34,900 nt of DNA from Gammaproteobacteria bacterium. GTDB lineage: Bacteria > Pseudomonadota > Gammaproteobacteria > GCA-001735895. Shown here in pieces: positions 10,078 to 34,124 of the stretch. The notes under the pieces were generated by a model, which was given only the letters and a program-made list of their open reading frames with translations, searched no databases and was not told the DNA's origin. The stretch lies in the NCBI GenBank assembly GCA_029862005.1, contig JAOTYD010000033.1, forward strand, positions 1 through 34,900, read 5' to 3'. Positions within the stretch are counted from its first letter, which is position 1. Every line of letters begins with the position of its first letter. The position numbers were made by a program, and so were the translations under genes.

Positions 10078-11838
10078 ATGCCATCTGAACCACTCAATCG
10101 CAAGCTTACCGCGATTCTATATACCGATGTTGCCGGTTATTCGCGTCTGACTGGTGGCGATGAGGAGGGCACCCACCGCCAGGTGATGGAGGTGCTGGAT
10201 TATACCAGTCAGCAGATATCGGATGCAGGTGGCAAGGTGTTGCGCTATTCCGGCGATGCGATACTGGCCGAATTTTCCAGCGCGGTCAGTGCCGTCAATA
10301 CGGCTATCGATATCCAGCGCGAGATGACCCGGAAAAATCAACAGGTCGCCGACGATAAGAAAGTCCAGATTCGTATTGGCATTAATATCGGCGATGTGAT
10401 CGAAGACAGGGGTGAAGTGTTTGGCGACGGTGTCAATCTCGCGGCCCGGCTCGAAGCGGCGGCGCCCGAAGGCGGAATCTGTATTTCTAGTTCCGTACAC
10501 GAACAGGTTCTTGGCAAGCTTGAGGAGGATTTTACCGATGGCGGTGAGGAACAGTTTAAAAATATCAATCGGCCAGTCCATGTCTATCGGTGGGTACCAA
10601 CACAGGATTCAAGTGTAAGTTCAGGCAATCCCGCAAAACGCAGTTCGGAGAAGCCCTCGATTGCAGTATTGGCACTGACGAACATGAGTAACGATCCCGA
10701 TCAGGACTTTATCGGTGACGGCATCACCGAGGATTTGATCACCGCCTTGTCCAAGATCCGTTCGTTCAAGGTTATCTCGCGCGAAAGCACGTTCTCCTAC
10801 AAGGGTTCTGCAATTGACGTACGCGAGGTTGCCCGTGAACTCGGCGTTCGTTTTGTGCTCGAGGGCAGCGTGCGCAAGGCAGGTAACCGGGTGCGCGTAA
10901 CCGCGCAGCTCATTGATGCCGAAACCGGACACCACGTCTGGGCCGAACGCTACGACCGTGAGATGGAGGACATCTTCGACCTGCAGGATGAAATGGTGCG
11001 GATTATTGCCTCGGCGCTCGAGCCAGAGTTGAACGCGTTCGAGCGTGAGCGTGCAGTTAGCAAGTCGCCCGATAATCTCGACGCCTGGGAGCTTTATCAG
11101 CGAGCCCTGTGGCATATGTGGACCTTCGAGGAAGAAAATATTCATACCGCACTGGAGTTGTTTAAACAATCTTCCGCAGCAGACCCTAAATTTGCCCCGG
11201 CCTATGCCTACTATGCCTATTGTTGCTACCAGTTCGTGATCCTGGGCATTGCGGAAGACCCGGACGCATATTTACAGGAAGGCTTGGAATCTGCGAGAAA
11301 GGCGCTGCAATGTGATGACAGGGACGCGATTTCGTACTTTGCGATCGGCCGCATTCACATGATGCTGGGCGATCATGACTCGTCAATTGCGGCGTTGCGA
11401 AAATCCATCGAACTGAATCCCTGTTTTGCGCAGGCTTATCATGGTCTTGGCTTTGCCCTGTCGCTTGCGGGTGAACTCGAGGAGTCCAAGCTCACGACCA
11501 AACAGGCTGTCACGATGAGCCCTCGCGATCCGATGATGTGGGCATTCACGATTGTGCATGCGCTCACCTACATCCTTAGTCAAGAATACGAAACGGCACT
11601 GGAATGGGCCAATCGTACCCTGCAGATTCCAAATGCGACCGGCTACTGGTCACATGCTGTCAAGGCTTCGGCGCTGGCTAATCTCGGAAGGGTAGACGAC
11701 GCAAAACAGTCCCTGGCGCTGGCATTGGCTGCGAAACCCGACCTGTCGATCGGTTATCTTGAAAAAAACCTGCCGACCAAGCACGTTGGAGGATTGGATC
11801 CCTATCTCGACGGCTTGAAAAAATGCGGTCTCGAGTAG
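10078..11838 (+). CDS. Class III adenylate/guanylate cyclase with TolB-like and TPR domains
   Basis: This encodes 586 residues with no signal or membrane segment. Residues 8-175 form a class III cyclase domain: metal-binding Asp17 (LYTDVAGYSR) and Asp60 (RYSGDAILAEF), and catalytic GDGVNLAARLE with Asn120 and Arg124. Residues about 195-325 form a TolB/FlgO-like domain (SIAVLALTNMS, FIGDGITEDLITALSKIR, YVLEGSVR-like FVLEGSVRKAGNR, HVWAERYDRE). The rest is tetratricopeptide repeats (about 360-560). This architecture is common in soluble signalling cyclases that sense through protein contacts, but the nucleotide made cannot be told from the sequence. It converges on a cyclic-nucleotide-domain kinase gene with a 213-base gap. 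All catalytic residues are present, so activity is expected. Confidence 0.85.
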   Translation: MPSEPLNRKLTAILYTDVAGYSRLTGGDEEGTHRQVMEVLDYTSQQISDAGGKVLRYSGDAILAEFSSAVSAVNTAIDIQREMTRKNQQVADDKKVQIRIGINIGDVIEDRGEVFGDGVNLAARLEAAAPEGGICISSSVHEQVLGKLEEDFTDGGEEQFKNINRPVHVYRWVPTQDSSVSSGNPAKRSSEKPSIAVLALTNMSNDPDQDFIGDGITEDLITALSKIRSFKVISRESTFSYKGSAIDVREVARELGVRFVLEGSVRKAGNRVRVTAQLIDAETGHHVWAERYDREMEDIFDLQDEMVRIIASALEPELNAFERERAVSKSPDNLDAWELYQRALWHMWTFEEENIHTALELFKQSSAADPKFAPAYAYYAYCCYQFVILGIAEDPDAYLQEGLESARKALQCDDRDAISYFAIGRIHMMLGDHDSSIAALRKSIELNPCFAQAYHGLGFALSLAGELEESKLTTKQAVTMSPRDPMMWAFTIVHALTYILSQEYETALEWANRTLQIPNATGYWSHAVKASALANLGRVDDAKQSLALALAAKPDLSIGYLEKNLPTKHVGGLDPYLDGLKKCGLE

Positions 11839-12051: not shown

Positions 12052-13446
12052 TTACTCGTTGTCGTGGCTACCGCGATGCATCTCGATCTGATGGTTGATG
12101 TTTTCCTCCTGCAGCAGCTTTTGCATGGCGTTGATGAAGTTGCCTGATTGCTGATAGCCAGTGTCACGAAACCGAATGGTTACGGCGAGTTCGTCAGGAT
12201 CAAGCATCAAGTTGAACTTGCTCGAGGGTTTTAGAATATTGCGAATTTCGTCCCAGTCCGAAATGCGATCATCAGGAACCTTGGACAGTGCGCTGTCGAT
12301 GAATTCAGCGAGCGGTTCATCAATTTCCGGACAGGCATTACGAATATCAGGCGGTTTCTGATTGACCTGCATTTTTAACAATTTGGCCAGCGTTGATGCA
12401 CTGAAGGGCAGGCTGTTGGTCAACATATGAAACGCCATAACGCCGAGCGCGTAAATATCTGCGCGCCCATCGACCATATCACCGTTAATGATTTCTGGCG
12501 CCAGGTAGGACGGTGAGCCTTCGATATTGACTTCTTTGTCTTGCGGGGGGCCGGCAATGCCAAAATCGGTAAGCTTGATATTACCGTATGCATCAATGAC
12601 GATGTTTGACGGTTTGATGTCGCGATGGACGATGCCTTTTTCGCCGTGGTTATGTGCGTACTGCAAGGCGTTGGCGACCTGGTACAGGATTTCACGTGTT
12701 TGCGTGAGATTAAACGCGCCCTTATCAGCCAGGGTCGCCGAAAGATCCTGTCCGTGCAGTTTTTCCATGACGATGAAACGGGTGGAAAATGCGTCGATGA
12801 CTTCGAACACATGGACGATATTTGGGTGGTTCAAACTGGCAATAATTTTGGCTTCCTGTTCGAAGCGATCGAGAAACTTATCGTCGTAGGCCAGCTTGTA
12901 CTTCAGCATCTTGATCGCGACCTCGCGTTCAAGTTCCTGTTCCCAGGCGTTGAACACCGTCGCCATGGAGCCCTCGCCGAGCTTATTTCGTAAGTCATAC
13001 TTGCCAACCCGGTTAATGCCGCCGATGTGTGCCATGCGACTGGCCATTAACTGTGACATGACTTCGGCAAAATCCGGGTGTTTTTCGATCAATTCCCTGA
13101 AGTGATGTTTATCCAGATAAAAGGTGGAGGTCTTTGCTCGTGCAACAATGTCGGCCGAATAGGTCGAGTTGACTAGCAACGAAATTTCGCCGACCACTTC
13201 ACCTTTCTTAAGCATGATTCGGCTTTTGACTTCACCGTTAATATCCGGGATCTGGACCTCGACCTCGCCTTCGCAGATAAAGTAAATTCGGCTACCCGTC
13301 TGGCCGGCCTCGATTACTTTGGCGTTTTTATCGAATTTCTCGATTTGCGTGTGCCGCGCAATATCGCGAATGATTTCGACATCGAGATCCTGCAGGATCT
13401 TGACGCCCGAGAGCATTAACGCGATTTCATCGACATCGATTGACAT
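12052..13446 (-). CDS. Ser/Thr protein kinase with N-terminal cyclic-nucleotide-binding domain
   Basis: This encodes 464 residues, cytoplasmic. Residues about 12-135 form a cyclic-nucleotide-binding beta barrel (KVIEAGQTGSRIYFICEGEV, GEVVGEISLL). Residues about 148-410 form a Hanks-type kinase: GEGS (157-160), Lys179 in VAIKMLK, HRDIKPSN (274-281), DFG (294-296), APE (316-318). All kinase residues are intact. In the phosphate-binding cassette the canonical Arg position (GELALLxxxPRAA) reads VNSTYSA, with Tyr96 in its place, so cyclic-nucleotide binding may be lost or altered. A C-terminal 60-residue tail has no recognised domain. The layout resembles a fused PKA regulator and catalyst. It is convergent with a cyclase gene, but direct regulation is unproven. 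Confidence 0.88.
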   Translation of the reverse strand: MSIDVDEIALMLSGVKILQDLDVEIIRDIARHTQIEKFDKNAKVIEAGQTGSRIYFICEGEVEVQIPDINGEVKSRIMLKKGEVVGEISLLVNSTYSADIVARAKTSTFYLDKHHFRELIEKHPDFAEVMSQLMASRMAHIGGINRVGKYDLRNKLGEGSMATVFNAWEQELEREVAIKMLKYKLAYDDKFLDRFEQEAKIIASLNHPNIVHVFEVIDAFSTRFIVMEKLHGQDLSATLADKGAFNLTQTREILYQVANALQYAHNHGEKGIVHRDIKPSNIVIDAYGNIKLTDFGIAGPPQDKEVNIEGSPSYLAPEIINGDMVDGRADIYALGVMAFHMLTNSLPFSASTLAKLLKMQVNQKPPDIRNACPEIDEPLAEFIDSALSKVPDDRISDWDEIRNILKPSSKFNLMLDPDELAVTIRFRDTGYQQSGNFINAMQKLLQEENINHQIEMHRGSHDNE

Positions 13447-13539: not shown

Positions 13540-14295
13540 CTATAATAATCCGGGATTTAGTGGAGAAGCCGCGGTCAAGCCGCCATCGAGGGTATAACAC
13601 TGTCCGGTTGCGAAACTGGCCTCGTCGGAGGCTAGCCATGTCGCCAGGTTGGCGATATCTGCGGGCTCACCGAAACGTCCTGCTGGGTGCCGCGTCAGCG
13701 CATCGCGTCTTGCAGCGGCGGGATCCCCGGCGACCGCAAACGCGGCGTCGGCCATGCCGGTCATAATCCAGCCGGGGCTGATCGCATTGCAGCGAATATC
13801 GGGGCCATGGTCGACTGCGATTGAGCGCGTCAGACCCTGCACAAAAGCCTTGGAAGCATTGTAAAGAGCAAGCCCGGGATCCGCTGTCGATGCCGAGATC
13901 GAACCGATATTGATAATCGAACCACCACTGGCCATGATCGGGATGCAGGCGCGACAGGTGAGGAAGACGCCCCTGGCATTGACCCCCATCAGCGTCTCGT
14001 AATCTTGATCGGTTGTTTCGACGATGGTCTTCTCGATCTGGATGCCAGCGTTGTTGACCAGCACCGAGAGCTCGCCAAACTCGGCTACCAAGGCATCGAC
14101 GAGGTTATCGACCTCGGATCTGTCGGCGACATTGGTTGTCTGCCATAAGGCTTCTTCAGGTAAATCCTGCGGTCGTTCGCCCCGTCCGCAGGTCATGACG
14201 CGGGCGCCTTCGATAATGAACTTATCGACGATAGCGCGACCGATTCCCTGACTGCCTCCGGTGATCAGCGCGGTCTTGTTCGTCAGGCGTTTCAC
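13540..14295 (-). CDS. SDR-family NAD(P)-dependent oxidoreductase (copy 1)
   Basis: This encodes 251 residues, a classical short-chain dehydrogenase: TGGSQGIG (12-19) cofactor loop, NNAG (81-84), Ser in NIGSISAS (near 132-134) and YNASK with Tyr145 and Lys149. It likely oxidises or reduces an alcohol/ketone on a small metabolite. It follows a second SDR on the same strand with a 4-base stop/start overlap (14292-14295), and that SDR overlaps the Rieske gene in the same way. All three are one translationally coupled unit. Copies 1 and 2 share blocks such as GIxIEKT and ADPGLAxY, so they are tandem paralogues. The substrate is unknown. A hydroxylated osmolyte intermediate is an inference from the neighbouring epimerase and demethylase-like genes. 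Confidence 0.88.
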   Translation of the reverse strand: MKRLTNKTALITGGSQGIGRAIVDKFIIEGARVMTCGRGERPQDLPEEALWQTTNVADRSEVDNLVDALVAEFGELSVLVNNAGIQIEKTIVETTDQDYETLMGVNARGVFLTCRACIPIMASGGSIINIGSISASTADPGLALYNASKAFVQGLTRSIAVDHGPDIRCNAISPGWIMTGMADAAFAVAGDPAAARRDALTRHPAGRFGEPADIANLATWLASDEASFATGQCYTLDGGLTAASPLNPGLL

Positions 14296-15050
14296 AGGCT
14301 CATCTGCTGCACTTGTGCGCTCAGACCACCATCGATCACCCAGAGCTGGCCCGAGGCATAACGGGCCTCGTCGGAAGCAAGCCAGTTAACCAGGTTGGCG
14401 ATATCTTCGGGTGTGCCGTAGGTACGGATCGGGTGAACCTCACGGACCGCCTTTTTGAGTGATTCGATATCGCCCGATTCACCGAAAAAACTCTGCAGCA
14501 TCGGGGTATCGACATAGCCCGGGCAGATCGCGTTGACGCGAATTCCCTCGGGCCCGTGGTCGCAGGCCATCGCGCGCGTCAATGCATGCACCGCGCCCTT
14601 GGTGGCGCAGTATGCCGCGAGCCCGGGATCAGCAATGTAGCCATCGTAGGACCCAAAGTTAATCACGCTCGCCCCCGCCGACTTGCGCAGCAACGGCAGC
14701 GCGAACTTGGAGGTCAGGAACATGCCGGTCACGTTAATCGCAAAGATGCGGTTCCATTCTTCGAGCGTCGTATCTTCGATTGTCTTTTCGATCTCGATGC
14801 CGACCGCGTTGACGAGGATATCGAGCTTGTCCCATCGCCCGGCAAGTTCGGCAAAAGTAGACCGGCAAAGTTTTTCGTCGGTGACATCGAAGGTTATAAA
14901 TTCTACCTGTTCGGGTAGCGTCCCCGGTTGCGACAGATCAGCCGCGATGACCTGCGCGCCCTCGCGCGCAAAGCGCTCACAAATCGCGCTGCCGATACCC
15001 CCGGTTCCGCCGGTAACGAATGCGGTTTTGTCCACGAGCGCCTGGCTCAT
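14292..15050 (-). CDS. SDR-family NAD(P)-dependent oxidoreductase (copy 2)
   Basis: This encodes 252 residues, a classical SDR: TGGTGGIG (13-20), NAVG (81-84, Val replacing the usual Ala), Ser134 in NFGSYDG and YCATK with Tyr147 and Lys151. It is a paralogue of the downstream SDR, with matching blocks GIEIEKTI, TGMFLTS, ADPGLAAY and DHGPEGIRVNAI. It sits between the Rieske gene (4-base overlap at 15047-15050) and copy 1 (4-base overlap). The NAxG change and altered serine loop suggest divergence of substrate or direction between the two copies. A two-step oxidation and reduction, or epimerisation of a hydroxyl centre through a ketone, would suit such a pair, but this is only a hypothesis. Confidence 0.88.
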   Translation of the reverse strand: MSQALVDKTAFVTGGTGGIGSAICERFAREGAQVIAADLSQPGTLPEQVEFITFDVTDEKLCRSTFAELAGRWDKLDILVNAVGIEIEKTIEDTTLEEWNRIFAINVTGMFLTSKFALPLLRKSAGASVINFGSYDGYIADPGLAAYCATKGAVHALTRAMACDHGPEGIRVNAICPGYVDTPMLQSFFGESGDIESLKKAVREVHPIRTYGTPEDIANLVNWLASDEARYASGQLWVIDGGLSAQVQQMSL

Positions 15051-16198
15051 GCGGCAACCTCGCTGGAGCGTTTGTAGGCCTCGAGAATCAGTCCATGAAA
15101 ATGATGGACCGCATGTTCGCTGGCACCGCTGCCCTCGATATCGACCATGTATCTTCCGGAATTGAAGGCCGGCGTGTTCATACCCCGTTGCACGCTCTCG
15201 ACCAGGCCGATGTCCTCCGGTTGCAGCACTTCGTCGATAAACCGGAGCGCTTCTTTTTCAGTCTCATTGGGTTCAGCGGTTTCAAAGAAGAAATCAAATT
15301 CCTCCCAGGTTTCCTGCTCGTTGATCGGGTAAAAGCGCCATACCATGAAGTTGCCGCGTCCCGGATAGCGCATCAGTGTCATATTCGGCCATAAGAACCA
15401 GACTGCGTGATCGGTTACAGTCGCATCCGCGATGTTGTAAGCGCTGTTTTCACCGAGCCTGGCTTTTGCCATGTGGCTGGAGTAAATACCGTGCGTTTTA
15501 ACCTGGTAGGTGTCCATGTCGATCATCGAACTGAAACCCTTGTGCGCAACCGGACAGTGATAGCACTCGAGAAAGTTGTCGACTACGGCTTTCCAGTTTG
15601 CCTTGATTCGATAACTTAGGCGTGTTGCGAAGGTAAGACTCGCGAGATCGGGCGCATAGTGCATGATCTCGTTGGCCAGGTCGCCGGACTGGGTGGATAG
15701 TGCGGTCGCCTCGGTATCGAGATTGACAAAAACCAGGTGGCAGAAGATTTCAATCCGCACCGGTTCCAGACAGATTTCTTTTTGATTGAAGTTCTCGAGG
15801 TGCTCGGAGCGCGGTGCGGTAACGAGTGTACCGTCGAGATCGTAGGTCCAGGCATGGTAAGGACAGGTAATGCGTTTGGTCTGGCCCTCCCCGGACAACA
15901 GCTCGTGACCGCGATGTTTACAGACGTTGTAGTAGGCCCTGAGCTCGCCATTGCGGTTGAGCAGGGCGATGATGGGCTGTCCTTCGATGCTTGAAGTGAC
16001 ATAACCGCCCGGTTCGCGCAGTTTTTCCTCGTGGCACAGGAATTGCCAGCTGCGATGAAAAATCTGTTCGCGCTCAATTTGCAGAAACTTTGGGTCGACG
16101 TAACAACGGGTATTGATTGAGTGCGAGCGCAGTGCGGTTTCGTCATAGCGACCCTTGATTTGAGAAAATTCATCTCGACTCAGAATTGCGCTGGACAC
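15047..16198 (-). CDS. Rieske non-heme iron oxygenase, alpha subunit (betaine/quaternary-amine demethylase-like)
   Basis: I start this at the GTG at 16198, which has a good ribosome site (gggag, 9 bases before). An ATG 111 bases further upstream would add an implausible extension. The product is 383 residues. The Rieske cluster ligands are Cys93, His95, Cys112 and His115 (CKHRGHE...CPYHAW). The mononuclear iron motif is DNFLECYHCPVAH with Glu211, His214 and His219. The layout matches alpha subunits that demethylate or cleave quaternary amines (glycine betaine monooxygenase, carnitine oxygenase CntA, stachydrine demethylase). The partner reductase is not in the window, so electrons must come from a gene elsewhere. 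Which amine is used cannot be told from sequence. Confidence 0.85.
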   Translation of the reverse strand: MSSAILSRDEFSQIKGRYDETALRSHSINTRCYVDPKFLQIEREQIFHRSWQFLCHEEKLREPGGYVTSSIEGQPIIALLNRNGELRAYYNVCKHRGHELLSGEGQTKRITCPYHAWTYDLDGTLVTAPRSEHLENFNQKEICLEPVRIEIFCHLVFVNLDTEATALSTQSGDLANEIMHYAPDLASLTFATRLSYRIKANWKAVVDNFLECYHCPVAHKGFSSMIDMDTYQVKTHGIYSSHMAKARLGENSAYNIADATVTDHAVWFLWPNMTLMRYPGRGNFMVWRFYPINEQETWEEFDFFFETAEPNETEKEALRFIDEVLQPEDIGLVESVQRGMNTPAFNSGRYMVDIEGSGASEHAVHHFHGLILEAYKRSSEVAA

Positions 16199-16418
16199 GA
16201 TATTTCTCCCGTAGATACAGTGATACAAACGGGCGAAGTCGAGGCGCTCCACCCACGCTTCCGGAAAAATAACATTACTAACCCACCAAGATATACTGAT
16301 TCGCGACATTATATCCTTGAAAGATGACCAATTCTTGCGGCAGACTGCAAATTCATAACGGATAGAGACGCTCTGCGGGTACAGATTGCGGCAACCCTGT
16401 CAGAGGTTCAGAATCAGC

Positions 16419-17420
16419 ATGGCCGAAACCAGCTCACAGACCGGTAAAAAGCAGTGGAATTACATACCAGAGGTACCGGTATTGGTGTCACCGCTGTTCA
16501 GAACGCCTTTGGACACCCGGGCGATCTTAAGGTGGTTTGTCAGGGGCTGGTTTCCCCTGTCGGAGCGAGTGATTATCCTGTTTCTATCGGTGCTGTCCTG
16601 GTTCTTTTTTCATCCGGCACTGGTGCGCTGCCAGGTATTCCAGTTCGACTGGATCGCGCAAATCTTCTTACGCAATCTAGCGTTGATGTTCTTCGTCGCC
16701 GGGGGGCTGCATCTTTACTTTTACGTGTATAAAAAGCAGGGCGATGATCGCCATTTCGATGCCAGGCCGTTGGCACGCAACAGTCGCGTTTTTACCTTTA
16801 ATAACCAGGTTCTCGATAACATGTTCTGGAGCTGCGCAAGCGGTGTAACCGTGTGGACCGCATTCGAGGTATTAATGATGTGGGGCCTCGCTAACGGTTA
16901 CGCGCCGGCGCTGCTGTGGCCCGAAGATGCCCCGTGGCTCCTGTTGCTGATCTTCCTGGTGCCGATCTGGGAGACGTTTTACTTTTTCCTGATTCACCGG
17001 TTGTTGCACTGGCCGCCGCTGTATCGCCGGGTGCATTTCCTGCACCACCGCAATACCAATGTCGGACCCTGGTCGGGGCTGTCGATGCACCCGCTCGAAC
17101 ACCTGATCTACCTGGGTTCGGTGTTGATTCACTGGGTGGTGCCGGCCAACCCGCTGCTGATCATTTTTCACCTGCAGTATTTCACGTTATCCGCCGCAAC
17201 CACGCATACGGGTTACGAAGGCATCGTCATCGACGGCAAGAAACGTCTCGCACTGGGCACCTTTCACCACCAGATGCATCACCGGTTTTTCGAATGTAAC
17301 TACGGCGGCCTCGAAATCCCCTGGGACAAGTGGCTGGGTTCCTTCAACGATGGCACACCGGAATCGCATCAGCAGTTTCTGGCCAGCAGAAGACTGAAAG
17401 CCGCGGGCAAGCAGGTTTGA
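16419..17420 (+). CDS. Fatty acid hydroxylase/sterol desaturase superfamily membrane protein
   Basis: This encodes 333 residues from the ATG at 16419 (a TTG at 16386 would extend it by 11 residues). It has several membrane segments and the three His boxes of the superfamily: HRLLH, HFLHH and HHQMHH, which bind a di-iron centre in relatives that hydroxylate or desaturate lipids. It is divergent from the Rieske gene (220-base gap) and 22 bases upstream of the dimethylglycine-dehydrogenase-like gene on the same strand. A hydroxylase family member in a betaine-type cluster is odd. It may act on a lipid or on an N-alkyl/heterocyclic substrate. No substrate is assigned. Confidence 0.85.
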   Translation: MAETSSQTGKKQWNYIPEVPVLVSPLFRTPLDTRAILRWFVRGWFPLSERVIILFLSVLSWFFFHPALVRCQVFQFDWIAQIFLRNLALMFFVAGGLHLYFYVYKKQGDDRHFDARPLARNSRVFTFNNQVLDNMFWSCASGVTVWTAFEVLMMWGLANGYAPALLWPEDAPWLLLLIFLVPIWETFYFFLIHRLLHWPPLYRRVHFLHHRNTNVGPWSGLSMHPLEHLIYLGSVLIHWVVPANPLLIIFHLQYFTLSAATTHTGYEGIVIDGKKRLALGTFHHQMHHRFFECNYGGLEIPWDKWLGSFNDGTPESHQQFLASRRLKAAGKQV

Positions 17421-17442
17421 TCCAGGTCTTGGTTAAAAGTAG

Positions 17443-19839
17443 GTGAAATCGCAGGCCCGCGTCGTCGTGATTGGTGGAGGCATCGGCGGCTGTTCGGCGC
17501 TATACCATCTGACCCAGGAAGGCTGGAACGACGTGGTTCTGGTCGAGCGCGACGAACTGACCTCAGGAACCACCTGGCATTCGGCTGCACAGTGCCCAAA
17601 CCTTGCCTTTAACCAGCTGCTTATCGGGTTGCGTAGTTACACTATCGATTTGTATAAGGCGCTTGCCGAGGATCCGGAATACCCGATCAATTATCACTAC
17701 GCGGTTGGTGGTCTGCGCCTCATAACCGACCAGCAGCAGCTCGACGCCTGCCATCATATTATTTCGGTGGCGGAAGGTATGGGCGTCGAACTCGAGTTAA
17801 TCAGCCCCGAACAGGCACTGGAGAAGAATCCCCTGCTCGAAACCCATGACCTGCTGGCCGCACTTTACGATCCGCGCGATGGCGACATCGATCCGGCGCA
17901 GCTGTGCCAGGCACTGGCACGACGCTCGCGCAAGGCCGGTGCCGAAATCTATCGGCACAATCCCGTTGTCGGCCTGACCCAGCAGCAAAACCACGAATGG
18001 ATCGTGCATACCCGGAAAGGGGATATTTGCTGCGAGCACATCGTCAACGCCGCTGGGTACCGCGCCAATGAAGTCGGTGCGCTGATGGGCGTCGAGTACC
18101 CGATTGTATCGATGGAGCATATGTATTTCGTTACTGAGCCCATCAATGAACTGATGCCGCCCGAGCAACGAGTCGCCATGGTGCGCTGCCCGCGCGACCG
18201 GTTTTACCTGCGCCAGGAAAAGCAGGGTTTACTCATCGGTGTTTACGAGCATGACTGCAAGACTTTTGGCATGGAGGGGATCGATCCGGATTTCGCCAAT
18301 GCCCTGTGCCCGGATGATCTCGATCGATGTTTGCCGAGGCTGGTGCATATTTTCCAGCGCTTACCCTGTTTGCAGAAAGTAGGGATTCAATCGATTATAA
18401 ATGGCCCCATTACCTATACTGCCGATGCAGGACCTCTGGTCGGTAAAACACCGGGCATGCGCAATACCTGGTCTATCAACGGTTTGAGGGTCGGAATCGG
18501 CGAGGGCGGCGGTTACGGCAAGATGCTGGCGCAAATGATGGTGCATGGCGAAACTGACTGGGATTGCTGGCAGTTGGACCCGCGTCGTATCAATCACTGT
18601 TCGACCCTGGAATACACGGCCCTGAAAGCGATCGAGGATTACCAGCACGAGTTTCAGTGGCACTTGCCGCAAGAACACCGTCCCGCTGGAAGACCGCTCA
18701 GGACTACCCCGTTATACCCGGTTTTACAGCAACAGGGTGCCCAGTTCGGCGTGGTTAACGGCTGGGAGCGAGTTTCTTTTTTCAAACCAACAGCGGAAAT
18801 CGTCGAACAACATGGCTATCGATTTAATAACTGGCATGCGATCGTCGAACGGGAAATCGAGTCCCTGTGTCGCGGTGTCGGCATCCTGGAGCTGTCCGGG
18901 TTTAATCGTTACGCGATAAGCGGGCCCGGTGCGCGCGACTGGATCGATAGCCTGACCTGTTCCAGGGTACCGACGCAACCGGGTAGGGTAGGCCTGGCGT
19001 ACTTTCTAAACCGCAGCGGCAACCTGTTGGCCGAAGCGACGCTTGCCCTAGTCGAAAAAGATCATCTCTGGTATGGATCTGCTGCAGCTGCTGAATTGCA
19101 CGATTGGGACTGGTTGCACGAACGATTGCCGCCGGATAGTGCGATTAGAATCGAATCGTTAACTAACGAGCATACGACCCTTGTGATAGCCGGCCCCAGA
19201 TCGCGCGAGTTAATCGAAGCGGTCAGCCCGCGCATGGACTGGAGCAAGGCAGCCTTTCCGCCAATGAGTGTGCGTCAATGTCTGCTCGGTCACTTCGAAG
19301 TAGTCGTGATGTCGGTCAGTGTTTGCGGCGAACTGGCTTACGAATTACACGTCCCGAATCAGCATTTAATCGGTGCTTACGATCTGTTGCAGCAACTCGG
19401 GGCATCGTTGGGTCTGGGCGGATTCGGTATGTATGCACTGGAATCGATGCGCCTCGAGAAGGGCTATGGGCATTGGAAGGCTGACTTGATTGACGAGTAC
19501 AATCCCTTCGAGGCCGGACTGGAACGCTTTGTTAACCTGGAGAAATCGTTTCCCGGTAAGGAAGGCCTGAAGACTCAGATTGAAGCTGGCAACCGCCGCA
19601 ATCGGTTAGTGCTCGAGATTGAATGCGATACGGCGCCATGCCAGGCGGGGGAATCGGTTTACTGCGGTAACGAGGTGGTTGGCACCATCACCTCGGCAGC
19701 CTGGGGTTTCAGAGTGCAGAAAAACCTGGCGATGGCTTACCTTAGGCCGGAATACTCTGCGACTGAAAGCAAGCTGGAAGTCGCGTTGCTTGGACATCGC
19801 TATAAGGCTCGTGTTGCAGCCGAAAACCTGGCCTGGTAA
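17443..19839 (+). CDS. FAD-dependent dimethylglycine/sarcosine-dehydrogenase-like protein with GcvT domain
   Basis: This encodes 798 residues starting at a GTG. The N-terminal half is a DAO-type FAD domain: GGGIGG dinucleotide loop (11-16) and SGTTWHS with His46, matching the FAD-attaching His of dimethylglycine dehydrogenases. The C-terminal part from about residue 420 is an aminomethyltransferase (GcvT)-like, folate-binding module (FGVVNGWERVSFFK onwards). Such proteins oxidise N-methyl groups and pass the carbon to tetrahydrofolate. After the Rieske demethylase the expected substrate is an N-methyl or N,N-dimethyl amino acid, which is inference. It is in the same unit as the hydroxylase-family gene. 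The length fits the family (about 800-850). Confidence 0.87.
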   Translation: MKSQARVVVIGGGIGGCSALYHLTQEGWNDVVLVERDELTSGTTWHSAAQCPNLAFNQLLIGLRSYTIDLYKALAEDPEYPINYHYAVGGLRLITDQQQLDACHHIISVAEGMGVELELISPEQALEKNPLLETHDLLAALYDPRDGDIDPAQLCQALARRSRKAGAEIYRHNPVVGLTQQQNHEWIVHTRKGDICCEHIVNAAGYRANEVGALMGVEYPIVSMEHMYFVTEPINELMPPEQRVAMVRCPRDRFYLRQEKQGLLIGVYEHDCKTFGMEGIDPDFANALCPDDLDRCLPRLVHIFQRLPCLQKVGIQSIINGPITYTADAGPLVGKTPGMRNTWSINGLRVGIGEGGGYGKMLAQMMVHGETDWDCWQLDPRRINHCSTLEYTALKAIEDYQHEFQWHLPQEHRPAGRPLRTTPLYPVLQQQGAQFGVVNGWERVSFFKPTAEIVEQHGYRFNNWHAIVEREIESLCRGVGILELSGFNRYAISGPGARDWIDSLTCSRVPTQPGRVGLAYFLNRSGNLLAEATLALVEKDHLWYGSAAAAELHDWDWLHERLPPDSAIRIESLTNEHTTLVIAGPRSRELIEAVSPRMDWSKAAFPPMSVRQCLLGHFEVVVMSVSVCGELAYELHVPNQHLIGAYDLLQQLGASLGLGGFGMYALESMRLEKGYGHWKADLIDEYNPFEAGLERFVNLEKSFPGKEGLKTQIEAGNRRNRLVLEIECDTAPCQAGESVYCGNEVVGTITSAAWGFRVQKNLAMAYLRPEYSATESKLEVALLGHRYKARVAAENLAW

Positions 19840-19863
19840 TGGACTTAAGTGGATTATCGCGCA

Positions 19864-20967
19864 CTAACTAAATGATGCCGATAGCTTTCCGATACGGCTT
19901 TCATCGGGGGTGACACCGAGACCGAGCGCTTGCGGCAGGTTGATGTATCCGTTCTTAACCTGGATACCATTCTCGGGATCATAATGCTCCTGGTAATAGG
20001 GTGCGCCGATCCAGACGCCTTCGAGTAACCCGGGATCCACGGTTGCTCCGACATGGGCGCAGGCTGCAGCGATGATGTCGCCACCCGAGGTGTCGTCGCA
20101 TGAGTGCGGCATCGAGCGCGCCGTGCAAATGTCACGTACCGTTGCAATTGCGTTCAATCCACCCAGCCTGGTCAGCTTGAGGCCGAAGCCATCGCAAATT
20201 CCGAGAGAGATTGCGCGCAGCACATCGTTGATAGTTTCGGTGTTTTCATCGAGGTAAACCGGATGGTGTATCTGGGCGCGTATCGAGGCAATTTCTTCCA
20301 TCGTGTTGCAGGGTTGCTCGATGACGACTGGAATCTGTCTGCAGGACAGGCTGAGCAGCAGGGTGTCACGCGCGGTCAAACTGCGATTTGCGTCGATCGC
20401 CAGTCGAACCCGGTTGCCTACCGCTTCCCAGACCTTGTGAATGACGGCAATATCTTCATCGATGTCGCGGCCTCCGCATTTGATTTGCAAGCGCGGGAAG
20501 CCTTCATCTGCTTTTTCCCTTGCCTGCCTGACGCTGTCCTCCGGCGACGCGATGCCGATTGCATAATACGAGGGAACTTTCTCGGTGATGGCACCGCCAA
20601 GTAAATCGCAGACGCGCATTTTGTGGTGTTTGCCGATCAAGTCCATCAGCGCGATATCGATAGCCGCCTTGGCCTGGTTGTGGCCATTCAGGTGTGCATC
20701 CATGCGACGTCTTAACAGCAGGGGCGTAAGTGCTGATTCACCGATCATCGCCGGGGCCATTTGTGCCAGGGCAGCCCTGGCACCCTTGGCATGTTCCGGC
20801 TGGTAGGTCGGACCGACGGGACAGGTTTCGCCCCAGCCCACGAGGCCGTTATCACAAACCAGTTTGACAATGGTCGAATCGAGTGCATGCAGTGCGGTTC
20901 CCGCCATCGTGTAGGGCCGCTTCAATTGCAGGTCTTTCTGGTAGATATGAAGTTCAGCAATGCGCAT
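19864..20967 (-). CDS. HpbD-like enolase-superfamily epimerase (4-hydroxyproline/proline betaine type)
   Basis: This encodes 367 residues from the ATG at 20967. A GTG at 20982 overlapping the cyclase stop is an alternative. The start [13 protein letters not shown], the [11 protein letters not shown] loop, [26 protein letters not shown] and [16 protein letters not shown] agree with my memory of the hydroxyproline-betaine 2-epimerase HpbD. The MR/MLE catalytic set is present: Lys163 (QIKCG), metal ligands Asp192, Glu217 and Asp240, and Lys264 (GLKLTRLGG). Such enzymes move the alpha proton of a betaine between two Lys. It is the last gene of the unit that starts at 24914. The family is firm. 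The exact betaine is inferred from recalled similarity, not alignment. Confidence 0.8.
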
Positions 20968-20969
20968 TG

Positions 20970-22175
20970 CTAAGTTTCGCACAAAGCGTAAACGGCCTGT
21001 GGCTCTGCAATACCCTTCATGTCGCGGTTGCCCATGAACTGCGAGGGTATTTCGATGAGTTCGGAAAACTTACGTGAAAACAGTATGTTGCAGTCGAACT
21101 CCTTGGTCAGCGATTCGAGGCGCGCGGTACGATTCACCGCGGGGCCCATCACCGTGAAATCGAGGCGGTCGGGCGCGCCGACATTACCGTAAATCACTTC
21201 GCCGAGGTTAAGACCCACGCCAAACCTGATTTCGGGCTGGCCATGGCGGCGGCGTTGGTGATTCAGGGTTTCGAGGGTGTTGTGCGCATCGATGGCGGCA
21301 TCAATAGCCGCGTTGCATGCGTTTTGTTCACTTGTGTTCTCGTCGATCGGAAACACGATCAGCATTGCGTCACCGATGAAGCGCAGAATTTCGCCGCCCC
21401 TTGCGTTCACTGCGGCGGCAACGAATTCAAAGTACTCGTTGAGCATTTCGAGTACCTGCGCCGCGGGCAGCGTTTCGGTAATCTGGGTGAAATCGCGCAG
21501 GTCGCTAAACCACAGGGCCGCGTTGATCAGGTCCGCATCGCCGCGCTTGATCATGCCGGCAAGAACTTTTTCGCTGGTGCGTTTACCGACGTAGGTGTTC
21601 ATCAGTGAACGCGATATGTGTCGCAAGGCATGCACTTCGAGCACCGGTGCAAGGTAGTCCCGAATTCGCCGAAAGCTCTCGATGTGCTGATCGCTGAAAC
21701 CACCTTTTCTTTTAGTGCTGATTATTATCGCCGCGCCTGGTTCGGCGACCTCGCCGAAAAGTACCGGCAGCGCCACGTAATCGGTAAAGCCGTCCTCGGC
21801 CAGTTCGGTATAGGCACGGTGCGCATCTTCTGGCAGATTATCCAGCCGCTTGCGCACGCGTTTATGGGTTTCGTAGATTGTTGCTAATGGGCTGCCGATA
21901 TAGCGTTCCGAATTACGCACGCCGTGCGATGCATTAATGGGCGTGGTCGTGTCAGTCGACTTCAGCCAGGTTTCCGAAGTACCGACCAATTGCGGATTGA
22001 GCGTCAACAGCGAAACCATCAAGCGGTCAATCGAGGCGCCGTGAACATTCATTTGATGTGCGAGCTGGTGCACAAATTTATTGGTGCTTTCGATACGGCG
22101 ACCCAGTGTGAATAACCAATCGATTACGCCCGGGGCATAACAGCCCGTTATATTTTCTGGTTGTGGAGTGGACAC
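20970..22175 (-). CDS. Class III adenylate/guanylate cyclase with N-terminal GAF-like region
   Basis: This encodes 401 residues. The N-terminal half (about 1-190) has a GAF-like pattern ([28 protein letters not shown]) with no transmembrane segment. The C-terminal domain from about residue 200 is a class III cyclase: metal-binding Asp225 (LWFSDLRDF) and Asp269 ([11 protein letters not shown]), and the catalytic Asn/Arg in [11 protein letters not shown]. It lies 5 bases after the EamA gene, directly upstream of the HpbD-like gene. A signalling cyclase inside a catabolic operon suggests that a metabolite or cell state sensed by the GAF-like region is linked to this pathway. The sensed ligand is unknown. 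Confidence 0.83.
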
Positions 22176-22180
22176 TGTGG

Positions 22181-23071
22181 TTATTGGGTTTCCGATGTCA
22201 GGACTGTACTGCGGTTGCGTCGTTTTTCGCTGGATACCAGTATGATACCCGAAATTACGATTAGGCTGGCACCCGCAAGCATCGCCAAAGTGGGTTGGTC
22301 ACCCCAGATCAGGTAACCGTAGATAAGGGCAATCAGGATGCTGACGTATTTAAACGGGCCGATGAAGGACAATTCGCCGAGGCGGCTACCGATGATCAGG
22401 AACAGGTATCCACAATAGAGTGCCCCTCCAAGTCCAATAAACCACAGGTACCAATGCAGGTCGGCTTCGCCCCATCCCTGGTAAATCGAATAGATTCCAC
22501 CACCCAGCATGACAATCCAGGCATTGGTGAACGCAACCTGCGATGAGGGGATTTCAGCGGGTACGTAGCGAATCGCGATATCGCGTAACGCCACGAAAAA
22601 AGCACAGATGATCGGAAATATAACCGCCCATGAAGCCGTCTCGGAAAACGGATTGGTGATCAGTATCACGCCACCAAAGCCGACCAGAATAACGATCCAT
22701 CGATCCAGACTTACGTTTTCCTTCAGTATGGTTGCCGCCAGAAGTGCCAGAAATATGGGTGAGGCAAAGCCCAGGGTTGATGCCACTGCGATGGGTAACA
22801 TGGACAGGCCGGTCAGGAAGGCGAGGGTAGCGCCCAGTTCAAACAAGGCGCGCAGCAGGTTCCAGCGATGCAGGCTGCGGCGATTGAAAACAGGTTGCCT
22901 ACGAAGCGTCATCACGCTCGCGAAGATTATGCAGATCAATGCACCTCGCAAAAACATGACCTGCCCGACATTAAAAACCTGCGTGATGTGTTTTACGATG
23001 GCATCATTGGTGGTAATCATCGACATTGCGATGACCACGAATAGCGCAGCCTTGAGGTTGTTGAATTCCAC
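22181..23071 (-). CDS. EamA/DMT-superfamily permease (copy 1)
   Basis: This encodes 296 residues starting at the GTG at 23071, 19 bases after the hydrolase stop. An ATG at 23149 overlaps the hydrolase by 59 bases and adds a polar extension, so it is less likely. The protein has about ten hydrophobic segments in two similar halves, the DMT/EamA pattern (FNVGQVMFLRGALICII, RWIVILVGFGGVILITNP), and a C-terminal basic tail. EamA proteins export or import small metabolites. In this operon an osmolyte or its product is a possible cargo, but the substrate cannot be read from sequence. Confidence 0.82.
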   Translation of the reverse strand: MEFNNLKAALFVVIAMSMITTNDAIVKHITQVFNVGQVMFLRGALICIIFASVMTLRRQPVFNRRSLHRWNLLRALFELGATLAFLTGLSMLPIAVASTLGFASPIFLALLAATILKENVSLDRWIVILVGFGGVILITNPFSETASWAVIFPIICAFFVALRDIAIRYVPAEIPSSQVAFTNAWIVMLGGGIYSIYQGWGEADLHWYLWFIGLGGALYCGYLFLIIGSRLGELSFIGPFKYVSILIALIYGYLIWGDQPTLAMLAGASLIVISGIILVSSEKRRNRSTVLTSETQ

Positions 23072-23090
23072 GAAGTGAAGAGTAGCAGTC

Positions 23091-23864
23091 TCAGCTTTGC
23101 TGGAGTAGAAATTCTCGTAGCAGCGGGAGTACCTGGTCGCTGGCTTCAATCATTAATGCATGCTTGAGTCCTTCGAGAATAACCAGGCGGGAACTGGGCA
23201 GTTCGCCATCAATGAATTGATTGAGACGCGGATTGCAACCGCCATCGAGCTCACCGGTCAGCACCAGGCAGGGGCATTTGACTTCATGCAACCAGGGCGC
23301 CATTTCCGTGGTGGCGTAAATCCAGAACACACTCAGGAAGACATCGGCAGGGGTATCGTTAACCTGTTGTAGACGTGCTTCTACCAGATCCGGATGTGCC
23401 TGGATGAATGCATCGGTGAACCAGCGTGCAACAAAGGTCCCCAGGGTTTCGGCGATCCCGTTTTGCTCCATCGCATCGCCGACCGCTTTCAGTTTTGCGC
23501 GATCATCCTCGCTACGACCCGCGGCGGTGCTAAGCAGACCGACACTCTGGGTATGTTCGGGGTAGGCGCGTGCGTAGGCCGGACCGATCATGCCACCGAG
23601 CGAATGCCCAGCAATGTGAATTTTCTCGTGCCCGAGCTTCAGCCGTAGCGCTTCGAGATCATCGACAAGATCATCGAGGGTATATGGCGTTGGTGGAATC
23701 GGGCTTTCGCCGTGACCACGTAAATCGTAACTGACGCAGGTAAAGTCCTGCTTGAGATCGTCAACGAGCTCGTTCCAGGTGGTTTTGCGCGCGCCGATGC
23801 CGTGCACGAGGTAAAGCGCGGGTCCTTGTCCCTCAATTCGATAGCTGACATCTATCGCGGCCAT
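23091..23864 (-). CDS. Alpha/beta-fold hydrolase
   Basis: This encodes 257 residues without signal peptide. The catalytic triad is visible: Ser88 in GHSLGG, Asp207 in TGELDGG, His235 in GLKHALM. The oxyanion-side motif is LVHGIG. It resembles the enol-lactonase/esterase branch of the superfamily (PcaD-like), which hydrolyses C-O or C-C bonds of small molecules. It sits between a luciferase-like monooxygenase (9 bases upstream) and an EamA gene. A monooxygenase followed by a hydrolase is typical of ring-opening or ester-cleaving steps. The substrate is unknown. Confidence 0.85.
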   Translation of the reverse strand: MAAIDVSYRIEGQGPALYLVHGIGARKTTWNELVDDLKQDFTCVSYDLRGHGESPIPPTPYTLDDLVDDLEALRLKLGHEKIHIAGHSLGGMIGPAYARAYPEHTQSVGLLSTAAGRSEDDRAKLKAVGDAMEQNGIAETLGTFVARWFTDAFIQAHPDLVEARLQQVNDTPADVFLSVFWIYATTEMAPWLHEVKCPCLVLTGELDGGCNPRLNQFIDGELPSSRLVILEGLKHALMIEASDQVLPLLREFLLQQS

Positions 23865-23873
23865 TGCTACGGG

Positions 23874-24914
23874 CTACGATGCTCGGGCCCGGGGTTTGTC
23901 GGTCGCGACAAACCCCGGCATGACTTCTTCCGCGAAGCATTGAATCGACTCCAGCATTTCGGCTTGTTCAACGCCGAAGTTGATATTCATGATGAAACGA
24001 TCCACGCCGGCCTCCGCATAGGGTGCAAGCTTGTCGACCATTTCCGATGAGGTGCAAATGGTCAAATTCTCGGCCGTCTGTTCAATGGTCATCTTGCGGG
24101 GTAGCGGTTTTATCATCCCGTTCTCGACGATGCCGGGCCCGGTAAAAACGTTATCAAAACGGCTGTAGTAGTCGTGCGCCATCTGGATCTTGCGCTTACG
24201 GTCAGCATCGTTATGCGATAAAAATGCAACCCGCGACAGCGAAAGGGTCTGATGCGCACCTGCGGCACCCAGTTCTTCCTTGCCGCGGTTGAACGCGTTG
24301 ACCTGGTCGAGCATATGTTGATGATCGCCTGACAGTGGCGTGGTCTGGATATGAAAACCGCGCCTGGTGCAGTGGTAAATAGCTTCGGGAACCAGCACCG
24401 CCATCATGATCGGGATGTCGCGAACCGGACGCGGCATGATCGTCAGTGGATCAAACTGGTAGTATTTACCATCCCAGGAAACTTCTTCGTCGGCAAGCAA
24501 TGCCTGCAGCACATCCAGGGATTCATCAAATTTCTCGCGGCTGATGGTAAGGGGTACGCCCATGCGATCCATCTCGAAGCCGAAAGCGCCGCGCCCGACG
24601 CCGACCATGAGTCGATGATCGGTAAAAATGTCCGCACATACGAGTTCTCCAGCGAGGATACGCATGTCGTGCAATGGCAACACCGAAACCGCGGTAATGA
24701 TTTTCAGTTTCTGCGTCTGACTAGCGATCTTGACGGCAAACTGGAGCGGTGCCGGCATCATCAGGATGTTGATCAGGTGGTGTTCGGTAATGCCAACGGA
24801 TTCGTAGCCGCATTGATCGGCACAGCGAGCCAGCTCGAGCATGTCCCGGTAAACACGATCGCCACCGTAGGACTTGTCGGGATAGTACGCTGAAAGCTGG
24901 ATACTGAAATGCAT
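23874..24914 (-). CDS. Luciferase-like flavin-dependent monooxygenase
   Basis: This encodes 346 residues with the bacterial-luciferase (LLM) TIM-barrel pattern: QLSAYYPD, a GVTEHHLI-type segment (VGITEHHL), ITAVSVLPLHDM, GVGRGAFGFEMDRMG and a C-terminal GVDRFIMNINFG. Such enzymes use FMNH2 from a separate reductase, or F420, to hydroxylate or cleave small organic molecules. It is the first gene of the 24914-19864 unit. No flavin reductase gene is visible nearby. It may open or oxidise an N-containing ring or N-alkyl group, as LLM enzymes do in several catabolic pathways. The substrate is unknown. Confidence 0.85.
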   Translation of the reverse strand: MHFSIQLSAYYPDKSYGGDRVYRDMLELARCADQCGYESVGITEHHLINILMMPAPLQFAVKIASQTQKLKIITAVSVLPLHDMRILAGELVCADIFTDHRLMVGVGRGAFGFEMDRMGVPLTISREKFDESLDVLQALLADEEVSWDGKYYQFDPLTIMPRPVRDIPIMMAVLVPEAIYHCTRRGFHIQTTPLSGDHQHMLDQVNAFNRGKEELGAAGAHQTLSLSRVAFLSHNDADRKRKIQMAHDYYSRFDNVFTGPGIVENGMIKPLPRKMTIEQTAENLTICTSSEMVDKLAPYAEAGVDRFIMNINFGVEQAEMLESIQCFAEEVMPGFVATDKPRARAS

Positions 24915-28900: not shown

Positions 28901-29899
28901 TTATTCTGACACGATCCGGGCGATTACATTCATAAAATCGCCGATCTTGACCAGTGATGGAAAGTGACGGCCCATGATAATACCATCACTTGTGGCTCGA
29001 TACTCGACCGGTTTGCTACCGGTGTGTTCAGTAGTATAGACCCGCGCAATCAGATCGCCATCGCGCACCGGATCTCCGAGGGAAACACAGGGTTCGAGCA
29101 AGCCATTGTGCTCCGAAAATACGTAGGCGTTTTCCTGCTGCATGTCGAGCTTGATACTGGCCTGATCGGGCTGAACGGGCGCGGCGTCGAGAATCCCGGC
29201 ATGCACCAGGAAATTGTGTACGCCGCGTTTAGCCACCTCGGCCGTACGGGGACTGCTGCTGCCGCCGCCACCAAGTTCGGTAGATACGAATACCTTGCCC
29301 ATCGCTTCAGCCTGGGTGTCGTACATGCCACCCGCGTCAATCTCGATCAGGCTCAGGTAATAGGGCGCTGAGAAAGCCAGCGTTGCCGCCTCGCAGGCCC
29401 GCTGCTGGGACTTGTCTTCAAGTTCGTGGTAAGCGGCGAACGGCAGAAACTCGAGTGTTTTGCCGCCCGAGTGAATGTCGAGTACATAGTCACACAGGGG
29501 TAACAGCGTGCGCGTAATGTAATCCGCGATGAGCTGGGTGACGGTACCCGATTCCTGTCCGGGAAAAATTCGGTTCATATTGAGTTGATCGATGGGTGAT
29601 ACCCGTGCCGCTGCCTGAAACGCGGGGTAATTCATCATTGGGATGATGATTACGAGTCCGCGGACCTTGTCGATGTCGATGGTATTGGCGAGATGGTGCA
29701 ACGCGATCGGTCCTTCGTATTCGTCACCATGATTGGCGCCGGTCAGAATTGCACCCGGACCATCGCCATTTTTGGCTACCGTAATCGGCAGCATGATGGA
29801 TCCCCAGGCGGAATCGTTACGCGAATACGGTATCTTCAGGAAACCGTGTTGCAAACCGTCGCGGGCTAAATCTATGGTTGCTGATATCGGATTCGCCAT
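28901..29899 (-). CDS. doeB: N-acetyl-diaminobutyrate deacetylase, ectoine pathway
   Basis: This encodes 332 residues of the succinylglutamate desuccinylase/aspartoacylase family. The zinc ligands are visible: His57 and Glu60 in ANHGDEYEG, His143 in DIHSGG, with Glu208 in the STELGG segment as the likely catalytic acid/base. The family member in this gene order (after doeA) is DoeB/EutE, which removes acetate from N-alpha-acetyl-L-2,4-diaminobutyrate. It starts 2 bases after the doeA stop codon, so they are translationally coupled. The assignment is from motifs and operon order. Aspartoacylase-like function is the alternative. Confidence 0.88.
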   Translation of the reverse strand: MANPISATIDLARDGLQHGFLKIPYSRNDSAWGSIMLPITVAKNGDGPGAILTGANHGDEYEGPIALHHLANTIDIDKVRGLVIIIPMMNYPAFQAAARVSPIDQLNMNRIFPGQESGTVTQLIADYITRTLLPLCDYVLDIHSGGKTLEFLPFAAYHELEDKSQQRACEAATLAFSAPYYLSLIEIDAGGMYDTQAEAMGKVFVSTELGGGGSSSPRTAEVAKRGVHNFLVHAGILDAAPVQPDQASIKLDMQQENAYVFSEHNGLLEPCVSLGDPVRDGDLIARVYTTEHTGSKPVEYRATSDGIIMGRHFPSLVKIGDFMNVIARIVSE

Positions 29900-29901
29900 A
29901 T

Positions 29902-31083: not shown

Positions 31084-31094
31084 GATTGATTTCT

Positions 31095-34014: not shown

Positions 34015-34124
34015 GCATCGGTTCCCCATGAGCGCAACAGATTGTAGACTGGGACTTTTTCCAGGCGCTCTCGAGTGTACTGAAATCGTGCCGGATTTAA
34101 CAATTCATATTTAGTGGAGACGGT

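Follow-up and report, generated by a model that had tools for sequence, protein, structure and literature searches.

Betaines are widespread nitrogen-containing osmolytes, and we know of several for which no degradation route has been described. In the hydroxyproline betaine pathway, HpbD serves as 4-hydroxyproline betaine epimerase and proline betaine racemase, and a Rieske oxygenase and then a flavoprotein remove successive N-methyl groups (gene names follow the Paracoccus record). Rieske enzymes acting on quaternary ammonium compounds are divided by Quareshy 2020 (PMC7948474) into group Va, with an aromatic residue at position 203 (carnitine, choline, benzalkonium), and group Vb, with Asn at this position, to which the glycine betaine and proline betaine N-demethylases belong; the bridging Glu and the Cys pair of such enzymes are treated in Quareshy 2023 (PMC10952381). 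Here we describe a locus on a 34,900-nt stretch of contig JAOTYD010000033.1 (the window) of a 4.0-Mb, 105-contig gammaproteobacterial genome (G000, the own genome), in which an HpbD gene lies among genes for a Rieske oxygenase, two short-chain dehydrogenases (SDRs) and a dimethylglycine-dehydrogenase-like (DMGDH-like) protein. A sequence-only reading had interpreted the set as one pathway for a cyclic, hydroxylated N-methyl osmolyte. Genomes compared are labelled G###, loci L### and contigs of G000 C#.

We read the locus as a genus-conserved block of quaternary-ammonium catabolism into which an HpbD epimerase of a different lineage was inserted behind a cyclase gene, a tentative reading to which we assign a probability of about 0.45. 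The block consists of genes for a luciferase-like flavin monooxygenase (LLM), a hydrolase, an EamA transporter and a cyclase; a MocD-like oxygenase gene with or without the DMGDH-like gene; and a group Va Rieske oxygenase gene with two SDR genes and a kinase gene. Gene content, synteny, two HpbD lineages and the Va fingerprint are direct observations. Each kind of gene is known; their combination, and hence its compound, is not recognised. On this reading, the likeliest of those considered, HpbD was added to the block in one sub-lineage.

The best structure matches of the window epimerase are 4e8g from Paracoccus (Table 1) and 2pmq from Pelagibaca (398.8 bits), which we take to be characterised HpbDs; the best match outside the HpbD entries, 4mgg, reaches only 202.8 bits. 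The top NCBIfam model, a cis-3-hydroxyproline dehydratase, scores 243 of 500 bits, far below its cut-off, and the nearest HpbD in a named record (99% identical) belongs to the uncultured Gammaproteobacteria metagenome-assembled genome (MAG) FO_M_Gamma_013. Tyr56, Lys163, Asp193, Glu218, Asp241, Lys265, Asp292 and Trp320 are kept (2pmq chain numbers minus 2); among them Lys163 and Lys265 are presumably catalytic, Asp193, Glu218 and Asp241 metal ligands, and Tyr56 and Trp320 cation-pi residues. Bit scores, residues and tree agree on an HpbD-like epimerase, as had been proposed. Clustering with another enolase subgroup, which the sequence-only reading had named as the result that would speak against it, was checked, and by sequence the enzyme belongs to the HpbD clade, apart from other MR/MLE subgroups.

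Two positions set the embedded copies apart. Position 295 is Trp in 43 of 50 HpbD sequences (4mgg set aside); the exceptions are L014, with Phe, and six block copies (the window and L009-L013), of which five have Ser and one has His. These six block copies carry Gln98, a position derived from pairwise alignment, where the other HpbDs have Tyr98. For this survey 60 loci were tried, and the motif gave no open reading frame (ORF) in 13 (L015, L032, L048, L050, L052, L053, L058-L062, L076, L178). Across the 16 same-genus genomes with HpbD, residue 295 is Ser or His in 7/7 embedded copies and Trp in 9/9 others; a motif scan of position 98 in the same 16 found Gln in 6/7 embedded copies and Tyr in 7/9 others, the motif being unmatched in the remaining three. 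These two unusual residues may leave room for an altered substrate. In a tree of 39 rows (12 of 51 removed as near-duplicates, 4mgg as the one outgroup row), the five block copies included form a single clade (100/100), separate from the other same-genus copies L016, L017, L018, L069 and L075. The genus therefore holds two HpbD lineages, and the block HpbD would have been acquired from a different lineage.

Within the genus, HpbD is present in 16 of 31 genomes at 58-100% identity, with one more genome at 34%, and in none of the 64 other genomes searched. It is embedded in the block in seven of the 16 (G000, G002, G007, G009, G013, G020 and G022); in G021 some 1.7 kb separate it from the LLM gene, and it points away from that gene. 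The block occurs without HpbD in G006, G016 and G018, and in G003, where the block also lacks the MocD-like gene. The Rieske, SDRa, SDRb and kinase genes are contiguous on eight of ten contigs (G003 has an extra gene, and in G001 the SDRa interval was skipped by the gene caller), and the kinase gene adjoins SDRb on nine relatives' contigs. Among nine genomes in which the interval is visible, the DMGDH-like gene adjoins the MocD-like gene in G000, G006, G007 and G016 and is not beside it in G002, G009, G013, G018 and G022; G020 has a fragment of it after HpbD at the contig end. The MocD-like gene itself adjoins the Rieske gene, on the opposite strand, in most same-genus genomes with both, with a LysR gene in between in G007; G003 lacks this arrangement.

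Co-occurrence was scored in 24 same-genus genomes, with p values uncorrected for kinship and presence sets partly assigned by hand: the Rieske gene is present in 12 of 13 genomes that have the MocD-like gene and in 2 of 11 that do not (p=0.0004); for genomes that have or lack HpbD the corresponding counts are 12 of 14 and 2 of 10 (p=0.002). The MocD-like gene co-occurs with LLM (p=0.002) and with HpbD (p=0.007). G009 and G022 count as Rieske-positive from contig-edge fragments and G020 as MocD-positive from a 126-residue fragment; G010 (34% HpbD) and G012 (59% MocD-like fragment) were scored negative. Synteny and these statistics bear out the co-occurrence in related genomes that the sequence-only reading expected.

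The LLM and hydrolase genes form a two-gene module also in distant genomes, and their products may act as a type II Baeyer-Villiger monooxygenase and a lactonase. In a Granulosicoccaceae MAG (L023), whose HpbD falls outside the block clade, HpbD directly precedes LLM and hydrolase; this single case is the best evidence that the module can act with HpbD.

Elsewhere in the window, on the minus strand at 28901-33097, lie the ectoine/hydroxyectoine utilisation genes eutB, eutC, doeA (eutD) and doeB (eutE), each of which exceeds its curated NCBIfam cut-off. At 33058-34029 there is another gene of the cyclodeaminase family, whose product scores 300 of 322 bits for Delta1-pyrroline-2-carboxylate reductase. 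Synteny between the ectoine genes and the block is also seen in L012, L161 and L156. The neighbours might be unrelated, separate pathways gathered by an osmolyte island: the ectoine operon is 4 kb off, LLM and hydrolase stand free elsewhere, and block members come and go. We consider this unlikely, given that the genus conserves gene order and adjacency, with the proteins about 64-97% identical, that the MocD-like and Rieske genes co-occur, and that HpbD adjoins LLM and hydrolase in a different family as well (L023).

The best solved relative of the window Rieske protein is CntA (Table 1; 128 of 337 residues identical); the stachydrine demethylase Stc2 scores 106.7 bits. Its true start is uncertain, since full-length matches elsewhere start at residues 29-44, with the very close G020 protein matching from residue 1. 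F246, E248, C249 and C252 correspond to CntA position 203, Glu205, Cys206 and Cys209 and are identical in 3/3 same-genus orthologues examined; HpbB of Paracoccus pantotrophus carries Asn at position 203. In the tree, an 11-row clade includes CntA and YeaW (96/95), and HpbB lies outside it. With Phe at 203, the bridging Glu and the Cys pair, and the tree agreeing, the protein is by sequence a group Va enzyme like carnitine monooxygenase, not of the N-demethylating HpbB/Stc2 type, so that the N-methyl removal earlier ascribed to it, as in the HpbD pathway, is not borne out. The broader prediction of quaternary-amine and N-methyl chemistry for the Rieske and DMGDH-like proteins is consistent with structure matches, fingerprint and tree. 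Carnitine itself is an unlikely substrate, because every reported carnitine-pocket residue is changed: F258, N270, Y295, Y315 and F319 read H, M, F, I and L in the multiple alignment and gap, R, F, I and L in the pairwise one.

HpbB gave 13 matches in the own genome, the best of them 33-37% identical and confined to roughly the first 200-230 residues, and no HpbB-like protein; its pattern (Asn with Glu-Cys-x-x-Cys) occurs in 0/11 matches with a readable motif, the other two being without the Cys pair before the His. A scan of window proteins from 10078 to 33097 showed no Rieske reductase, and a search of the own genome, run without positive control, showed no YeaX/CntB-type reductase. A search for PF00175 reductases, positive in 10 of 14 control genomes, gave only two matches in the own genome, and one of these two matches in our reading adjoins Nqr-like genes; the reductase had already been noted as missing. 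An unlinked MocF-like reductase with a Reductase_C domain on contig C8 is a candidate. The set probably works with HpbD chemistry but outside the HpbD/HpbB pathway, since the defining group Vb Rieske enzyme with its reductase was looked for and not encountered.

The own genome has a broad methylated-amine repertoire, with 18 Rieske matches (some weak), 10 MttB-like and several DMGDH-like proteins, and a paralogous pair of Rieske and MocD-like genes (36% and 49%) lies on contig C5. In the relative G025 (L085 7596-11492), a different Rieske gene, of own-C48 type, stands about 1.6 kb before its HpbD.

The MocD-like protein had been taken for a fatty-acid-hydroxylase-family protein, and the domain is indeed present, with His motifs at residues 204, 217, 235 and 294; it resembles MocD. 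Its plasmid-borne homologues are annotated as sterol desaturase family, and the one on S. meliloti pSymA (about 38% identity over 97%) has a MocE-family ferredoxin as its neighbour and an FAD oxidoreductase close by, an arrangement that in our reading may be mocDEF of rhizopine catabolism. For mocDEF, a 1998 paper cited in PMC10107442 proposes, by its title, a ferredoxin-oxygenase complex. MocE-type ferredoxins had 0 matches in the window. Predicted structures of the MocD-like protein and LLM have a low mean predicted local distance difference test score (55.9 and 57.7). A MocD-like gene also lies beside HpbD in a Hyphomicrobiales MAG, where a DMSP_lyase-family cupin gene, the MocD-like gene and HpbD are adjacent (L014 8216-11113); by annotation, the same cupin family adjoins hpbA in Paracoccus pantotrophus and is near a MocD-like gene in Leisingera. 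The DMGDH-like protein matches 5l46 over nearly its full FAD/GcvT length and contains the motif GTTWHSA, whose His we take to be the covalent FAD site.

ORF positions and Pfam confirm the genes and domains of the sequence-only reading (Table 1). Its three units, Rieske-SDRa-SDRb (spacings -4 and -4 bp), MocD-DMGDH (22 bp) and LLM-hydrolase-EamA-cyclase-HpbD (9, -59, 5 and 2 bp), are confirmed by spacing, with one correction: the kinase gene lies 93 bp past SDRb in the same orientation and accompanies it in relatives, so that the Rieske unit has a fourth gene. Promoter and terminator scans gave no signal, with 9 sites each vs 10.5 and 15.0 in shuffles.

Table 1. Genes of the locus, with coordinates in the window and supporting matches.
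Gene product	Coordinates	Strand	Evidence
Ser/Thr protein kinase with N-terminal cyclic-nucleotide-binding domain	12052..13446	-	Pfam Pkinase 190.9 bits, cNMP_binding 56.6 bits
SDRb, short-chain dehydrogenase	13540..14295	-	Pfam adh_short_C2
SDRa, short-chain dehydrogenase	14292..15050	-	Pfam; 4-bp overlap with each neighbour
Rieske oxygenase, group Va (CntA-like) quaternary-ammonium type	15047..16309	-	CntA 6y8j 262.9 bits
FA_hydroxylase-family membrane di-iron oxygenase, MocD-like	16386..17420	+	Pfam 72.8 bits
DMGDH-like DAO+FAO_M+GcvT protein	17443..19839	+	Pfam; 473.3 bits to 5l46
HpbD-clade betaine epimerase (MR/MLE)	19864..20967	-	506.6 bits to 4e8g; listed ORF start 20982
Class III adenylate/guanylate cyclase	20970..22175	-	Pfam 57.5 bits
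EamA-family transporter	22181..23149	-	Pfam
Alpha/beta hydrolase	23091..23864	-	Pfam; top NCBIfam models are 3-oxoadipate enol-lactonases, under cut-off
LLM (Bac_luciferase)	23874..24914	-	Pfam 134.3 bits

The phosphate-cassette Arg of the kinase's cNMP domain, a site we identified by presumed correspondence with CRP and PKA, is substituted (STYSAD) in the window protein as well as in 10/10 relatives' loci; the domain may therefore bind a ligand other than cyclic AMP or cyclic GMP. A bacterial kinase fused to a cyclic-nucleotide-binding domain was not among the literature matches listed. Cyclase-domain genes flank the Rieske-SDR-kinase region on both sides, the second at 10078-11838.

Two SDR genes beside or near HpbD are not unusual as such: such pairs are seen, among others, in Cereibacter sphaeroides 2.4.1, Leisingera, Pelagibius, Ruegeria and Neomegalonema, and 6 of 54 loci pass the thresholds applied. 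In the SDR tree, the window SDRs group with their orthologues from the genus in two clades, both distinct from SDR1 and SDR2, the HpbD-adjacent alphaproteobacterial pair. Orthology with SDR1/SDR2 is rejected by this tree, which has no own-genome background rows (12 loci tried, two dropped by design; the sole fragment, of 118 aa, was too short) and no row L150_SDRb. The earlier statement that these SDRs stand outside the described pathway holds. Relatives of SDR1 and SDR2 (56% and 48%) adjoin a DAO-family gene on own contig C14; ownC14_down joins the SDR2 group at 91/80, below the significance star and on a long branch. There (L200, 8405-11184) the relatives and the DAO-family gene are accompanied by a DMGDH-like gene and an ABC transporter, and the group may be a further betaine cluster of G000.

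On another reading, the Rieske-SDR operon would break down a carnitine-like, acyclic trimethylammonium compound, while HpbD would work in trans for the SDR1-SDR2-DAO cluster of C14. It would suit the position of the Rieske protein near CntA, the relatives of the HpbD-type SDRs with their DAO-family gene, and two genes of G003 (L150 4326-5261 and 6634-7668): an L-carnitine dehydrogenase-like gene that separates Rieske from SDRa, and, in place of the MocD-like gene, an AraC regulator resembling GbdR (273.7 of 480 bits, below cut-off). However, all five carnitine-pocket residues are changed, the carnitine dehydrogenase match reaches 249 of 414 bits, under its curated cut-off, and HpbD, 2 bp behind the cyclase gene, is in the operon of the block, which makes such a division of labour improbable.

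A variant (hydroxy)proline betaine pathway, with HpbD epimerising, the Rieske and then the DMGDH-like protein removing N-methyls, and SDRs and LLM opening the ring, is very unlikely: HpbD is genuine, the DMGDH-like protein suits a second demethylation and betaine demethylation could be carried out by MttB-like proteins encoded at other sites in the genome, but the Rieske protein is of group Va, has Phe where HpbB has Asn (position 203) and clusters with CntA, the own-genome search showed no HpbB-like protein, some relatives have the block and not HpbD, and MttB-, HpbA-, HypD-, HypE-, HpbB- or HpbC-like genes were absent above thresholds from 11 same-genus HpbD loci (several incomplete). Across all 54 HpbD loci at thresholds, many of them incomplete, MttB-like genes occur in 18, HpbA-like in 14 and HpbB with HpbC in 2. 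A cyclic hydroxylated betaine, the substrate first proposed, is possible and not favoured by these loci.

Returning to a conserved block with an inserted HpbD, the compound would be transported by EamA, and HpbD, where present, would invert an amino-acid betaine at its alpha-carbon and thereby make the opposite stereoisomer usable. The Rieske oxygenase would hydroxylate the chain, on the carbon bound to the quaternary nitrogen or the one adjacent, rather than an N-methyl group, and the two SDRs would oxidise the resulting or native hydroxyls. LLM and hydrolase may then act as a Baeyer-Villiger/lactonase pair on the ketone. Methyl groups would be stripped by the MocD-like and DMGDH-like proteins, by the latter onto tetrahydrofolate, with electrons for the oxygenases supplied in trans by a shared ferredoxin and a MocF-type reductase. 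The carnitine dehydrogenase-like gene and the GbdR-like regulator of G003, both under curated cut-offs, count in favour of this reading as well, as do the pairing in L023 and the reductase candidate on C8.

Several observations weigh against this reading. In nine of the 16 same-genus HpbD genomes, some with incomplete contigs, HpbD lies outside the block; at 1e-60, G006 has the block and no HpbD, and G013 has HpbD and no LLM. Co-occurrence of HpbD with LLM and of LLM with Rieske is weak (p=0.07 each). Outside the genus, LLM is found in 5 of 17 HpbD-bearing genomes, in four on a separate contig and in L023 beside HpbD. The chemistry of the LLM, SDR and MocD-like proteins is read from family membership alone. 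The parts of the block are separable across relatives, some of which have it without HpbD, without DMGDH or without LLM, and the idea of one fixed pathway for the whole set is not supported.

More speculatively, and rather doubtfully, the embedded HpbDs (W295S/H, Y98Q) would have changed substrate and would supply the Va oxygenase with an amino-acid betaine, perhaps an acyclic one of the hydroxylated trimethylammonium type; this oxygenase would hydroxylate a carbon and break the C-N bond, after which SDR oxidation and LLM/lactonase cleavage would follow. If true, this would be a route to betaine nitrogen without Rieske N-demethylation or MttB methyl transfer. About ten defined genes, relatives with and without embedded HpbD as a natural comparison, and two sites separating embedded from other HpbDs mean that a substrate screen of one epimerase and one oxygenase could reveal a new osmolyte pathway. 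Moreover, the presence of HpbD next to a Rieske gene does not by itself signify the hydroxyproline betaine pathway.

Among known systems, MocDEF shares with the window an FA_hydroxylase-family oxygenase at the identity given above; unlike MocDEF, the window has no MocE match and the MocF-like reductase is unlinked. Mitochondrial dimethylglycine dehydrogenase matches the DMGDH-like protein over nearly its full length, although several paralogues occur in the genome stretches read. The MttB-HpbD-SDR-SDR-DAO-ALDH-DHDPS clusters of Cereibacter sphaeroides 2.4.1 (pB), Pelagibius and Leisingera likewise have HpbD beside two SDRs, which in the window belong to other clades. From the HpbD pathway of Paracoccus and Pelagibaca the locus differs in the group of its Rieske enzyme, in the residues at 295 and 98 of the embedded HpbDs, and in having no reductase, HpbA, MttB, HypD or HypE found beside HpbD; it agrees in the HpbD clade and in the catalytic and cation-pi residues. 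Compared with carnitine monooxygenase CntA/CntB (YeaW/YeaX), the Rieske protein has an altered pocket and no YeaX homologue turned up in the genome search, but it shares with CntA its place in the tree, the aromatic residue at 203, the bridging Glu and the Cys-x-x-Cys pair.

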